The notes under the pieces were generated by a model. That model was not told where the DNA came from and did no database searches. It saw nothing but the letters and a program-made list of their open reading frames with translations. Both the position numbers and the translations under genes were made by a program. From Ditibartonella apihabitans (GTDB lineage Bacteria > Pseudomonadota > Alphaproteobacteria > Rhizobiales > Rhizobiaceae): a DNA stretch of 64,000 nucleotides. Shown here one piece after another: positions 5,120 to 11,080 of this stretch (position 1 is the stretch's first letter; the number at the start of each line of letters is the position of its first letter). The stretch is taken from contig NZ_CP015820.1 in the NCBI RefSeq assembly GCF_002007485.1, positions 2,317,501 through 2,381,500 of the forward strand, given 5' to 3'.

Positions 5120-5182
5120 ATCAAAGTATAAAAGAAATAAATTCATCCGCTAAATCTTAAAATGTTCCTGAAGGGGTCGATC

Positions 5183-5542
5183 ATGAATTCCGTCATCGCT
5201 GTAATGTTGCTTGTTTCCTGCACAGATGGTTTTTCTGCATGCAATGCCGCTGACGATATGGTCAAGGTTTATCCCACCCACGAAGCCTGCGAGGCAGCCT
5301 TGATACCGGCAGTCAATCACATCGGACAGTCCAACGAATTGGTGTTCGGTCAATGTATCAAAGCAGATCCGAACTTCATCAACGGTGATTTGAGCATTTA
5401 TTGGCGGGTTGACCAGAATGGCGATTTCATTGTGGAACTTGCCAATGAAGATAGCGAAGAAGAAGAATTGACTGTACCGTTACAAAAGATTGAAAAGCCG
5501 GTTGCCGGCGCAACACAAATCAATACAAAACCCGCAGCATAA
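5183..5542 (+). CDS. Small exported cysteine-containing protein of unknown function
   Basis: I do not recognise a family. The ATG at 5183 is preferred over the upstream one at 5162 because AAGGGG sits six bases before it; this gives 119 residues. The N-terminus MNSVIAVMLLVSCTDGFSA resembles a short signal or lipoprotein-like leader. Three later cysteines (SACNAAD, EACEAAL, GQCIKAD) could form disulfides, and the tail is acidic then Pro/Ala-rich. An exact EcfG promoter upstream makes it a probable member of the general stress regulon. Confidence 0.75.
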   Translation: MNSVIAVMLLVSCTDGFSACNAADDMVKVYPTHEACEAALIPAVNHIGQSNELVFGQCIKADPNFINGDLSIYWRVDQNGDFIVELANEDSEEEELTVPLQKIEKPVAGATQINTKPAA

Positions 5543-5698
5543 AGTTATCTTCTTTACATTATTCTTGGCCATTAATCTTGCCAATGGTCGGGATTTTCTG
5601 ATTAAAAGATTATTCACCAAAGCTTAAAATATTTATTTTCCATTGAAACATTGCTGTGAAACTCGTAAATGCGGGGCACTATCAATGGAGAATGTTCG

Positions 5699-6247
5699 AT
5701 GCGCGACGATTATCAATCCGGTTATGAAAATATGGATTATCAGGATCCTTATAATCAGCAGCCCATGCAGCCACAAGCGCCGCTGGATCCCGCAGTTGAA
5801 AAAGTAAGGCGGAAGCTGATGAGGCTGATGATCGTTTCTATTGGAATAACAATCGTTCTCATTCTGATTATTCTGGCCGCCGTTATCTATAAAGTTACAT
5901 CTTCGCCTTCCGATAAAGCACCGGCAAGCACTACGAAAACCGAAACAAGTCCGGTGCCCGGTGCTAACGCCGATCTATCAAATCAAGCGGTTAATGCAAA
6001 AACACCGGCTCCTGCTGTTCCGGAATTTATCAAACGTTCCATTGCTCTTCCTCAAGGAACACGCATCCTCTCGCAGAGTCTTTCGAACGACATGATTGCG
6101 CTTGAAACATTGACACCGGAAGGCAATACAGAGCTTGTTATTTACGATTATCGGCAAGGACATCTGGTTGCCGGTATTACAGTTGATACCTCACCGGTTG
6201 CAAAACAGCCTGTTGAAGAACCGGCTAACGCATCGCCCGCCCAATAA
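5699..6247 (+). CDS. Single-pass inner-membrane protein, DUF6476-like
   Basis: The start at 5699 (MRDDYQSGYEN) has GGAG eight bases upstream, better than the ATG at 5669, and gives 182 residues. A Gln/Pro-rich cytoplasmic N-terminus is followed by a basic patch (VRRKLMR) and one strong membrane helix (about 46-68, SIGITIVLILIILAAVIY). A Thr/Ala/Pro linker then leads to a small C-terminal domain with IALPQGTRILSQSLSNDMI and ELVIYDYRQGHLVAGI. The helix plus LPQGT...LVIYD pattern matches alphaproteobacterial DUF6476 proteins as I know them. Function unknown. It converges on clpB with a shared terminator. Confidence 0.8.
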   Translation: MRDDYQSGYENMDYQDPYNQQPMQPQAPLDPAVEKVRRKLMRLMIVSIGITIVLILIILAAVIYKVTSSPSDKAPASTTKTETSPVPGANADLSNQAVNAKTPAPAVPEFIKRSIALPQGTRILSQSLSNDMIALETLTPEGNTELVIYDYRQGHLVAGITVDTSPVAKQPVEEPANASPAQ

Positions 6248-6311: not shown

Positions 6312-8996
6312 TTATTTTTTAGGTTTATTCGGCTTTGTATCCGGCTTTTTTTCGTCAGCCTTTTCCCCGGCAGTTTCGGTACCCTTGTCCTCGACTTTCG
6401 ATTCATCGACAGGATGAGTTGGCGTCGGTGTGAAGATCAGGCGATCGGAACCGCGCGAAATATTGACAGTCGAACCATCAAGAATATCGCCGATGAGCAG
6501 CCTTTCAGCGAGCGGATCCTGAACTTCTCTCTGGATAACCCGTTTAAGAGGCCGTGCACCATAAGCAGGGTCATAGCCCTTGTCGGCAAGAAATTCGCGA
6601 GCACTATCATCAATAACAAGTTTGATCTTCCGGTCTGACAACAATGATTGCAAACGTTGCAACTGGATGTCGACAATGGCTCCCATTTCTTTCCGGTGCA
6701 ACCGGTGGAACAGGATAATTTCATCAACACGGTTGAGAAATTCCGGTCTGAATGCAGCTTTAACCACTGCCATAACATCATCACGGGCTTTCTCGGCTTC
6801 ATCATTATCGTCAAGAGCTGTCAAATATTCGGCACCGAGATTCGATGTCATAATAATGAGCGTATTGCGGAAGTCGACAGTGCGCCCCTGACCATCGGTC
6901 AAGCGTCCGTCATCAAGCACCTGCAAAAGAACATTGAAAACATCCGGATGGGCTTTTTCAATTTCATCAAACAAGATGACCTGATATGGCCGACGACGAA
7001 CCGCTTCTGTCAAAGCACCGCCTTCTTCATAACCGACATATCCCGGAGGAGCACCGATCAAACGGGCAACCGAATGTTTTTCCATATATTCCGACATGTC
7101 GATACGAACCATTGCGGTCTCGTCCTGGAACAGGAATTTTGCCAAAGCCTTGGTGAGCTCGGTTTTACCAACACCTGTTGGCCCTAGGAAAATGAACGAA
7201 CCAATTGGTCTGTTCGGGTCTTGTAAGCCCGCACGTGCACGCCTTACTGCGCGGGAAACAGCCTGAATTGCTTCGCCTTGTCCGACAACGCGTTTGGCAA
7301 GCTCGTCTTCCATTCTCAGAAGTTTCTCACGTTCGCCTTCGAGCATGCTATCAACCGGAATACCGGTCCAGCGTGATACCACTTGCGCAATGTGATCAGG
7401 TGTGACGGTTTCTTCCAGAATCGAGCCGTGATTTTCCTGACTTTCAGCCTCTTCCAATTGTTTAGCCAATTGCGGAATGATGCTGTAGGAAAGTTCACCA
7501 GCTTTCTGATATTCACCGTTACGCTGGGCAATAGCCAAATTGTTGCGCGCTGCTTCCAATTGTTTCTTCAACTCGGCAGCATGACCCAATTTCTGTTTTT
7601 CAGATTGCCATTTTGCAGTGATTTCATGCGATTGTTCTTCAAGCTCGACCAATTCGTCTTCGAGTTTTTCCAAACGATCTTTCGAAGCAGGATCGGTTTC
7701 GGCTTTCAAAGCTTCCCGCTCAATCTTCAACTGCATGACACGGCGGTCAATTTCATCAAGTTCTTCCGGTTTCGAATCAACCTGCATACGCAACCGTGAA
7801 GCTGCTTCATCAATAAGGTCAATTGCTTTATCGGGCAAAAACCGGTCGGTAATATAACGATTCGACAAAGTTGCCGCAGCAACGAGAGCGGAATCGGAAA
7901 TCCGGACTTTATGGTGTTGCTCGTATTTTTCTTTAATACCACGCAGAATCGAAATGGTGTCTTCAACTGTCGGTTCATCAACAAAGACCGGTTGGAAACG
8001 ACGGGCAAGAGCCGCGTCCTTTTCAACATATTTGCGATATTCTTCGAGAGTCGTTGCACCAACGCAATGAAGTTCACCACGGGCAAGAGCCGGTTTCAAC
8101 AAATTGGACGCATCCATTGCGCCATCCGATTTACCGGCACCAACCAATGTGTGCATTTCATCAATAAACAGGATGATTTCGCCATTTGCAGCCTGAACTT
8201 CGGTCAAAACCGCTTTCAGGCGCTCTTCAAACTCGCCACGATATTTTGCACCGGCAATCAATGCCCCCATATCAAGGGCAAGAAGCGATTTGTCCCGTAA
8301 TGTTTCGGGAACATCGCCGTTCACAATACGCAATGCCAGCCCTTCAACAATAGCCGTTTTACCAACGCCCGGTTCACCGATCAGAACCGGATTATTTTTG
8401 GTGCGCCGCGACAATACCTGAATTGTCCGGCGGATTTCTTCATCACGGCCGATGACAGGGTCAAGTTTCCCCTCGCGCGCATCTTTCGTCAAATCACGCG
8501 CATATTTCTTCAATGCGTCATACTGTGCTTCGGCATTGGCCGAATCAGCTGTGCGTCCTTTTCTCATTTCATTGATCGCCTTGTTTAACGCTGTTGGCGT
8601 AACCCCACTTTTGGAAAGAATTTCTGCTGTCTTGGCTTTCGGTTCCATCAACAGAGCTTGCAAAAGGCGTTCGACAGTCACAAAGCTGTCTCCTGCTTTT
8701 TCTGCCAGCTCTTCTGCTTTGGTAAAAACCTTGGCCATAGCTTCCGACATATAAAGCTGGCCATTGCCACCGCTTACTTTTGGCAATGCCGAAAGTGCCG
8801 TTGCCAACGCCTCTTTTGCCGCTTTTACGTTGCCGCCAGCCTTCTCTATCAATGAAGAGCAAAGCCCCTCATTGTCATCCAATAGCACTTTTAACAAATG
8901 CTCGGGAACGAACTGCTGATTGTCCGATGACAAGGCAAAGTTTTGTGCAGACTGTAAAAACCCCTGCACGCGCTCGGTATATTTTTCTAAATTCAT
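6312..8996 (-). CDS. clpB: ATP-dependent disaggregase ClpB
   Basis: 894 residues, a Hsp104/ClpB-type AAA+ hexameric chaperone that pulls proteins out of aggregates with DnaK. It shows the N-terminal Clp_N repeats, the first AAA module ([27 protein letters not shown]), the coiled-coil middle domain (about 410-520) that separates it from ClpA/ClpC, and the second module ([23 protein letters not shown]). The C-terminus runs about 30 residues past the usual end as a Lys/Glu/Asp-rich tail. A RpoH-type promoter and a hairpin next to the ribosome site lie upstream, consistent with heat induction. Confidence 0.97.
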
Positions 8997-9197: not shown

Positions 9198-9989
9198 CTA
9201 TTCGTCTGCAATCACGTCGAGTGGAATTGTAATGTCGAGTTTACGCAGCATTTTTTTGAAGTCTTGTAACCTGTATTCGGCACTTTCGGTTACCAGACCT
9301 TGAATAAGGCCGCTTCCTGAATATTTTTTTTCAAGTTTTCCGATAATGCTTTCGGCGGGATCAAGAAAACAGCATTGTGGCGCTGCTTTTTCAAAGAAGT
9401 TTTTAAGCCAAGGCAGATGGGTACTTGAAAGCGTGCATGTATCAACGGCCGGATATTTTTCCAACAAATCTCCCATGAAACGGTCGACTTCGGATTGCGT
9501 TTTTTCCGGATTGAATAAGAAAGTCCCGCTTTCGACCAATTCAACCATCGGTGAGGCATTGACGAGAGCGACATTGTCCGGCTTTTTACTGTGATTTTTG
9601 ACAAATGCCTTCCCCATCTCGCTTTTCACCATTGAGGCTACCCCCATAATTGCCACAAAGCCGCTTCGACTTTTTCTTTCCGCTTCTTCAAGCGGCGGAA
9701 ATACGCCATAAAGCGGCACGGGCGAACTGTCTTTGACGCGGTCAAACACCATAATAGACGGCGCGTTGGAAGCGATAATGATGGCCGAGGGGTCGTAACG
9801 CATCAACCGTTTGAATGTCAGCTTCATAATATCGGCAAGCTCGTCAGCCGTCTTTTTTCCATATGGGAAATGGGCCCGATCGGCAAAATAGATAATATCG
9901 CGTTGCGGCTGTTTTCTATGTAACAGGTCCACAATGGCATAAGAGCCGATACCGGCGTCGAAAATGGCAACGGGCTTTACGAGTTTCAT
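9198..9989 (-). CDS. Glutamate-racemase-like protein lacking both catalytic cysteines
   Basis: 263 residues, clearly homologous to MurI (Asp/Glu racemase superfamily) along the whole length: [12 protein letters not shown] for the usual FDSGx[12 protein letters not shown], and HLPWL near the C-terminus. The two residues that MurI uses as acid/base are changed: the CNTAS motif reads ASNAPS and the GCTH motif reads SSTHLP, so Cys is Ser at both sites; the FDSG serine is Ala. Normal racemization should be abolished or strongly reduced. The reading frame is intact, so it may have a different or non-enzymatic role. It overlaps yacG by four bases and ends the murA-to-yacG gene run. Confidence 0.85.
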
Positions 9990-10198
9990 TCTTCTTCATC
10001 CGCATTGTTAAAGGGTTTACCCGGCAGGATATATGAACCTTTAAGCCAACGATTGAGATCAATTGCACGACAACGGTCAGAACAAAATGGATAAGCTTCG
10101 CGGGTTGAAGGTTTGCCACATTCAGGGCATGGCCTTGGTGAACGCAACGGATATACTTTAGCGGTTGATCGGGATTGGTCTTTAACTGATGTTGCCAT
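9986..10198 (-). CDS. yacG: DNA gyrase inhibitor YacG, small zinc protein
   Basis: I place the start at the ATG at 10198 (MATSVKDQ), one base after the maf stop and with GAGGT upstream, rather than an in-frame codon inside maf; this gives 70 residues. The zinc knuckle is [21 protein letters not shown] (CxxC and CxxxC), followed by the YacG helix [14 protein letters not shown]. In E. coli YacG binds GyrB and blocks DNA binding by gyrase. The tail is acidic. It is translationally coupled to maf and to the racemase-like gene. Confidence 0.9.
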
Positions 10199-10199
10199 T

Positions 10200-10859
10200 T
10201 CAGACCTCATCTTTCTGCCAATGTTCAAATACGGGATAATTCTGTGTTGTTAACAATTCGACTGTTTCAGCGAGCGGCAAGCCTACAATCCCGCTATAGG
10301 AACCGCTAATTTGCAAGGCAAAACAACCGGCCCGCCCCTGAATGGCGTAACCTCCGGCTTTTCCCTGCCATTCGCCCGACAAGAGATATGCTTCGATAAC
10401 CTCGCGCCCCAATCGTTCAAAACGCACACGGCTTTCAACAAGCTTATGATGACTCTTTCCCTTGGCGTTAATGAGACAGACACCGGTATAAACTTTATGC
10501 GTCCGGCCAGACAAAAGTCGCAAACATTCACGTGCTTCATCTTCATCAACGGGTTTCGGCAGAATTTTACGCCCGACGGCAACGACCGTATCGGCAGCAA
10601 GAACAAGCGCATGCTCGAATTCCGGCATAACACAAACGAGTTCTGCACCTCTTTGGGCTTTTTCCTTTGCCAAACGTCTTGCGAGAAAACGCGGATGTTC
10701 GAGACGCCTTGGCGTTTCATCAATATCGGCAGGATGCAAATGATCGGGGAAAACACCAATCTGCCGGAGCAATGCCAAGCGTCTTGGCGAAGCTGAAGCA
10801 AGAACAAGCTTGGTTTTCACCCGCGGGTCTTCTTCCGGCATAACAGAATTTGTCGTCAT
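10200..10859 (-). CDS. maf: Maf-like nucleotide pyrophosphatase
   Basis: 219 residues with the Maf signature [18 protein letters not shown] at the N-terminus, ETPRR, and [16 protein letters not shown] with the catalytic Asp. Family members hydrolyse dTTP, UTP or modified nucleoside triphosphates to monophosphates and sanitise the pool. It lies 2 bases after infA and 1 base before yacG, the usual rhizobial order infA-maf-yacG. Which nucleotide it prefers cannot be read from the sequence. Confidence 0.93.
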
Positions 10860-10861
10860 AA

Positions 10862-11080
10862 TTATTTATAACGGTAGGTGATCCTACCCTTGGTCAGGTC
10901 ATAAGGTGTCATTTCCACCATAACCTTGTCTCCAGCGAGAACTCTGATGCGGTTTTTACGCATACGCCCTGCTGTATGAGCGATAATTTCGTGATCATTA
11001 TCGAGCTTTACGCGAAACATCGCATTGGGTAAAAGCTCCGTAATCACGCCGGAAAATTCCAATACTTCTTCTTTGGCCAT
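10862..11080 (-). CDS. infA: Translation initiation factor IF-1
   Basis: 72 residues, the normal IF-1 length, one S1/OB-fold domain with [19 protein letters not shown], the RNA-binding [17 protein letters not shown] and the terminal GRITYRYK. It occupies the ribosomal A site during 30S initiation. It heads the infA-maf-yacG run and has an upstream leader of about 150 bases with a GC-rich hairpin (11131-11160). Confidence 0.98.

Follow-up and report, generated by a model that had tools for sequence, protein, structure and literature searches.

A MurI homolog with serine at both catalytic positions

We analyzed a window of 64,000 nucleotides from Ditibartonella apihabitans (contig NZ_CP015820.1, positions 2,317,501 to 2,381,500 of the forward strand). 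It contains a gene for a homolog of the glutamate racemase MurI in which serine occupies the positions of both catalytic cysteines (hereafter Ser/Ser; canonical proteins are Cys/Cys). The gene (product P0001) and its surroundings are organized as follows.

6312..8996, minus strand: clpB-like ORF of 894 amino acids; downstream of the Ser/Ser gene, with a 201-bp gap
9198..9989, minus strand: Ser/Ser MurI-like gene (P0001, 263 amino acids); ORF with predicted MurI fold, TIGR00067 score 92.9 bits
9423..9425, minus strand: codon AGT of Ser189, which stands in place of the second catalytic cysteine of MurI
9768..9770, minus strand: codon TCC of Ser74, which stands in place of the first catalytic cysteine of MurI
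9986..10228, minus strand: yacG (PF03884 and NF002362), directly upstream of the Ser/Ser gene
10200..10859, minus strand: maf (PF02545), upstream of yacG
10862..11080, minus strand: ORF of 72 amino acids, presumably infA-like

An earlier note, made from the letters of this DNA, had described an intact frame joined to yacG. This description holds: the 263 codons contain no internal stop (the plus strand in the same register across 9198-9989 has many), and the ATG of the Ser/Ser gene overlaps the yacG stop codon as ATGA. The same overlap was present at all seven other Bartonella loci in which the yacG frame was measured (8/8 with the window), and the junction at a further locus outside these eight (L030) has a similar appearance. 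The order with the clpB-like ORF is repeated at locus L130. P0001 is 95% identical to a protein of Bartonella sp. M0177 and 84% identical to one of B. apis PEB0122, and on this basis we assign the genome to the bee-living B. apis group. For gut symbionts of honey bees, genome engineering in one step has been demonstrated (PMC11389375). Past the clpB-like gene, the window has two plus-strand ORFs, 5162-5542 (126 amino acids) and 5669-6247 (192 amino acids), for which no Pfam family was found at E <= 0.001. By eye, the latter resembles a membrane-anchored protein.

The serine pair is conserved from Bartonella to archaea

P0001 carries the motifs FDAG (residues 10-13), ASNAPS (73-78) and LSSTHLP (187-193). 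We read the two catalytic positions in 120 rows of homologs, corresponding to 119 distinct sequences, with the window gene present twice (P0001 and L021). Among the distinct sequences, 86 were Ser/Ser, 31 were Cys/Cys and two were fragments missing one site each (L171, L172); no mixed sequence occurred among the 117 that cover both sites. Since the sorting into groups used these very sites, what carries information is the absence of mixed sequences and the identical split in the tree (see below). The replacement of both cysteines, which the earlier note had read from one gene, is thus confirmed on the minus strand at Ser74 and Ser189; it goes beyond chance and is more firmly established than originally claimed. 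Relatives as distant as archaea share the serine pair with Bartonella. Every one of the 39 archaeal copies examined was Ser/Ser (36 matches of the phylum draw described below and copies from three further Nitrososphaera genomes).

Ser74 and Ser189 are present in 87/87 Ser/Ser rows (86 distinct), as are E153, T190 and H191. D11, D37 and the PYG motif are invariant in the 86 rows that cover these positions, one row (L031) being without its N-terminus. Overall, the residues that line the pocket or act as helpers (D, D, PYG, N, E, T, H) show little or no variation in both the Ser/Ser and the Cys/Cys group. We take D11, E153 and H191 to assist the two catalytic positions in MurI, and the conserved pocket residues presumably grip the glutamate-like substrate. 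The two groups differ at further positions, among them S16 (where MurI has G), P77, P99, S188 and L192 (where MurI has Y or F). The change of FDSG to FDAG, also pointed out earlier, is present in P0001 but is not a feature of the family: the archaeal Ser/Ser proteins displayed keep FDSG, and FDAG was seen only in the bacterial members, with FDTG in L073. Both serines are also kept in archaeal proteins with variant motifs, LCSTHL in L074 and Ile in place of N75 in L202.

Bacterial carriers also encode a canonical MurI

The genome of the window contains a second MurI, as the earlier note had considered. This protein (L001) has the motifs FDSG, ACNTAS and ACTHYP and is thus canonical Cys/Cys; P0001 shares 30% identity with it over 215 residues. 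A search of the same genome with PF01177 gave one match, in the ORF of L001 (C1:1438526-1438981), and did not match the Ser/Ser gene. In a draw of Bartonella genomes, a lower-scoring MurI-type match (97-130 bit) was present in 61/61, and the 21 of these copies whose residues were read were all Cys/Cys. Canonical MurI was also found in two Staphylococcus genomes (G210, G211), in Fusobacterium (W02) and in genomes G232, G239 and G201. Since the bacterial carriers checked have a canonical MurI as well, our best reading is that the cell does not obtain its wall D-glutamate from the Ser/Ser protein. In archaea, the Ser/Ser protein was the sole homolog in 12/12 genomes searched at E <= 1e-5; in the archaeal genome G424, there was no TIGR00067 match at this limit other than the Ser/Ser protein L081.

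Profile matches and predicted fold

The profile models closest to P0001 are those of glutamate racemase, and all score below their cut-offs. With TIGR00067, P0001 reached 92.9 bits versus a cut-off of 146.65, below the NCBI equivalog score. Pfam returned no family at E <= 0.001, PF01177 (Asp/Glu racemase) included, and TIGR00035 gave no match to P0001 at E <= 1; the best TIGR00035 match among the members scanned was weak (E 2.5e-12, L017). Two archaeal Ser/Ser members passed the TIGR00067 cut-off (L017, 166.1 bits; G537, 152.6 bits). Note that automatic annotation is expected to name both of these genes, L017:5989-6786 (+) and the G537 copy (L074/L142), glutamate racemase.

An AlphaFold2 model of P0001 built with 32 sequences (pLDDT 93.7, pTM 0.90) predicts a MurI fold. 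Its best structural match was MurI 3IST (Z 29.6, 2.2 Å over 254 residues). MurI chains head both structure-match lists, and the fold match is full-length. Aspartate racemases come next (Z ~13 to 17), with allantoin racemases near 14. A shared fold alone is no proof of function.

A single branch separates the two groups, and the Bartonella copies are under selection

In an IQ-TREE analysis of 55 rows, one branch with support 100/99 split 41 Ser/Ser from 14 Cys/Cys sequences; the tree was rooted by midpoint only, with canonical MurI modestly sampled. Judged from these sequences, one change suffices to turn one state into the other; as the tree has no root beyond the midpoint, the direction is only presumed to be from Cys to Ser. 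The Bartonella copies group with those of other Proteobacteria, and those of Staphylococcus are split over two weakly supported positions (80/86).

Of the 36 pairs formed by nine Bartonella loci, 16 are listed; dN/dS was 0.07-0.12 in nine pairs, with dS saturated in the other seven. These ratios are rough, with dS above 1 in several of the nine pairs. Across the nine loci, all variation in the two serine codons is synonymous (TCC, TCT, TCG; AGT, AGC). In the window, each is one base away from a cysteine codon, and serine is kept in 9/9 loci. The lack of drift at the serines and helper residues argues that the protein is not a relic. The dN/dS values, the MurI fold and the second MurI together support the earlier suggestion that the gene is selected for something other than D-glutamate for peptidoglycan.

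Scattered carriers among bacteria, frequent carriers in part of an archaeal phylum

Named records provided 17 loci. Sixteen were Ser/Ser, and the exception, L018 of a Crocinitomicaceae MAG, was Cys/Cys. The 16 belong to Bartonella, Staphylococcus pettenkoferi, S. argensis, S. marylandisciuri, a further Staphylococcus and Nitrososphaera-type MAGs. In the plasmid collection, 63 records had a tblastn match, and both of the two read were Ser/Ser; Ser/Ser copies from this collection are those of Phyllobacterium zundukense (53%) and Fusobacterium vincentii (39%). The F. vincentii record (L020, NZ_CP084075.1, 2.1 Mb) is filed as a plasmid and is chromosome-sized, and it holds canonical MurI besides the Ser/Ser copy. 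Twenty phage records had a weak match, the one read being Cys/Cys, and a viral scan found no relative.

Among the 61 Bartonella genomes, 11 have a Ser/Ser copy above 300 bits (the copy in G161 ends at a contig edge), and G167 has only a 24-residue scrap of the gene. Matches in wider draws were as follows: 1/150 genomes of the order of the window (E limit 1e-40); 3/398 of Pseudomonadota, the window's own genome among them (1e-45); 18/151 of family f94 (1e-45); 3/390 of the order around f94 (1e-50); 6/29 of family f65 (1e-45); 12/108 of the Staphylococcus family (1e-40); and 36/250 of the archaeal phylum (1e-30). Our guess is that f94 is Halomonas-like and f65 Thalassospira-like. Bacillota gave four matches in 348 genomes (1e-45) with a single Ser/Ser carrier (1/348); L136-L138 (156-163 bits) were ruled out as members by their Cys/Cys residues. 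Two matched f94 genomes, those of L171 and L172, contain only short ORFs (133 and 188 amino acids), which may be truncated or split copies. The distribution of the Ser/Ser gene is thus patchy among bacteria, and within the archaeal phylum the gene is common in one part. That part is taken to be the ammonia oxidizers, on the basis of the accessible text of PMC12363236 and of the titles of the Nitrososphaera records.

Gene neighborhoods differ between lineages

Of 17 f94 loci (from 17 of the 18 matched genomes), 11 have a LysE/RhtB exporter gene immediately upstream of the Ser/Ser gene and on its strand. The other six are without it, and at L193, counted among the 11, the Ser/Ser gene is represented by a short ORF only. 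In the Staphylococcus family, an exporter gene lies directly downstream at two of seven loci, and a YbgC/FadM-like thioesterase gene directly upstream at six of the seven. PF01810 was confirmed for one exporter from each of the two families. In the S. pettenkoferi group, all three loci checked have a transporter-like gene directly upstream (L013:4760-5797 (+)), which we call YkvI-like and for which Pfam and NCBIfam gave no match. Note that neighbor distances were measured from alignment edges.

The f94 and Staphylococcus-family exporter associations look independent because these lineages are far apart in the tree. They could also be due to chance, LysE proteins being common. As to the substrate, these exporters are a weak indication of an amino acid or a derivative of one. 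At one f94 locus, L178:8729-11264 (-), the Ser/Ser gene is preceded on its strand, with a gap of ~450 bp, by a gene of the RidA family, an ORF that by eye looks cytochrome-c-like and a gene for a flavin amine oxidase, a further hint of amino-compound chemistry.

At archaeal loci, the fetched stretch contained a Snf7-like gene in 22/24 cases and a member of a tetrapyrrole methylase cluster (one Pfam-identified) in 23/24; in 16/24, the methylase lies directly beside the Ser/Ser gene on the opposite strand. We considered a link to cobalamin and read this arrangement as shared gene order only, given the strand of the methylases; staphylococci are not known to synthesize cobalamin, which also counts against the link.

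By tblastn, none of yacG, the thioesterase, the transporter-like gene or LysE was found beside the copies of f65 (five loci), Phyllobacterium, Fusobacterium or archaea (seven loci). Inspection by eye and ORF clustering noticed no yacG in the Staphylococcus-type, Phyllobacterium, Fusobacterium, f94, f65 or archaeal neighborhoods; this check covered ORFs of 60-70 amino acids and more, used no profile and could miss a short gene. No conserved pathway partner was common to all lineages examined.

A probable MurI-derived subfamily with a putative function of its own

We consider it the best explanation, with a probability of about 0.58, that the Ser/Ser proteins form a distinct subfamily derived from MurI that has its own putative small-molecule function and does not serve as a source of D-glutamate. 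This reading draws on the residue pattern, the predicted fold, the signs of selection, the split in the tree, the distribution and the second MurI. Both catalytic positions would have switched to serine within the MurI fold in a single event. The kept fold and the retention of nearly all substrate-gripping and assisting residues suggest that a ligand is still bound, most likely a small amino-acid-like or dicarboxylate compound held between two opposed serines, and probably also converted there by chemistry that can do without a thiolate. We further infer the class of substrate and the role: in bacteria, the gene has the look of an accessory one that spreads horizontally and helps the cell to handle or dispose of an amino acid or one of its derivatives. 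An ordinary racemase would be expected to have thiols, so the serine pair argues for another function. Counting against this explanation, the neighbors differ by lineage, and binding without catalysis could be enough to conserve the helper residues. In addition, an active RacX with Ala, described in the accessible text of PMC12838360, indicates that the catalytic sites are not absolute in every relative.

More tentatively, the opposed serines together with the old Asp and His/Glu helpers of MurI might catalyze a new, cofactor-independent reaction in organisms from ammonia-oxidizing archaea to Bartonella. Examples would be nucleophilic hydrolysis or elimination on a lactone, a thioester or an activated amino acid.

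Alternatively, the protein may be a non-catalytic pseudoenzyme whose MurI pocket binds an amino acid or dicarboxylate, acting as a sensor or as a partner of another protein. The replacement of both nucleophiles with the pocket motifs remaining would fit such a role, as would the lack of shared pathway neighbors. However, D11, E153 and H191 are as invariant as the serines, and a pure binder might let some of them drift; a constant partner gene is also missing. We therefore regard this alternative as rather unlikely.

A racemase that uses serine, acting on glutamate or another amino acid, with archaea consuming D-glutamate, is implied by the accessible text of PMC12363236, in which an archaeal protein is matched to 2GZM and credited with catalytic sites. 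The conserved pocket motifs agree with this proposal, but the 39 archaeal copies are all Ser/Ser and the bacterial carriers retain canonical MurI as well. Cys-to-Ser exchange is also costly in relatives: the Cys197-to-Ser variant of EcL-DER was without racemase activity, as far as the available part of PMC12838360 describes. According to the same source, one natural RacX is active with Ala in the first position; its C193S variant was markedly reduced in activity, with no statement there that it was dead. For MurI itself, the accessible portion of PMC8142540 explains why cysteine is favored as the racemase base and describes Cys-to-Ser mutants in which elimination of 3-chloroglutamate depended on which cysteine remained. 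Overall, a serine-dependent racemase appears improbable.

The earlier note had also speculated about a gyrase-binding protein acting with YacG. The overlap with yacG at all eight Bartonella loci measured is in line with this idea, and four MurI proteins inhibit gyrase by a molecular mechanism said not to be known (PMC10886550, accessible text). Against it, inspection by eye and ORF clustering noticed yacG beside the Ser/Ser gene only in Bartonella, and we find little reason to maintain the link. Ammonia-oxidizing archaea mostly lack gyrase, which would exclude it as a target of the whole family. A decaying duplicate or a sequencing error, to which the short ORFs in 2/18 matched f94 genomes (L171, L172) might point, can be dismissed in view of dN/dS values of 0.07-0.12 and of 86 distinct sequences that share both serines.

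Implications for D-glutamate use by ammonia-oxidizing archaea

We found no description of a Ser/Ser MurI subfamily in the open literature searched, a scope that leaves out most subscription journals, and no biochemistry of any member in the literature searched. According to the accessible text of PMC12363236 (2025, Mariana Trench), a glutamate racemase with a MurI-like fold is widespread in different clades of ammonia-oxidizing archaea; the Nitrosopumilus maritimus protein matches 2GZM and is stated to have the necessary catalytic active sites. In the main text, as far as it was accessible, the word 'cysteine' occurs nowhere but in the title of a reference or something similar. The D-glutamate use by these archaea proposed there is built on the racemase label. 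The protein in question, 'GLUR' (K01776), is very probably the archaeal branch of the Ser/Ser subfamily, and the archaeal proteins labeled racemase probably do something else. A whole subfamily, hidden under the name of glutamate racemase, would thus be set apart from that enzyme. If the Ser/Ser site cannot racemize, the D-glutamate diet of ammonia-oxidizing archaea described in that source needs revision; if it can, the subfamily would be an exception to the two-thiol chemistry of the family.

Comparison with known racemases

The Ser/Ser proteins resemble MurI (TIGR00067; PDB 3IST, 2GZM, 1B73) in their predicted fold and in D11, D37, PYG, N75, E153, T190 and H191. They differ from it by serine at both catalytic cysteine positions, and further by GS instead of GG at residues 15-16, by P77 and P99, and by THL instead of THY. 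With aspartate racemase and the EcL-DER/YgeA/RacX group they share the superfamily fold (Z about 13 to 17). Some members of that group have Cys/Thr or Ala/Cys at the two sites, a precedent for the replacement of one catalytic cysteine (PMC8142540 and PMC12838360, accessible text). Unlike the Ser/Ser proteins, however, they keep at least one cysteine. A further counterpart is 'GLUR' of the ammonia-oxidizing archaea, very probably the archaeal branch of the subfamily: it is credited in the accessible text of PMC12363236 with catalytic sites and D-glutamate use, whereas the 39 archaeal copies read here have serine at both positions.
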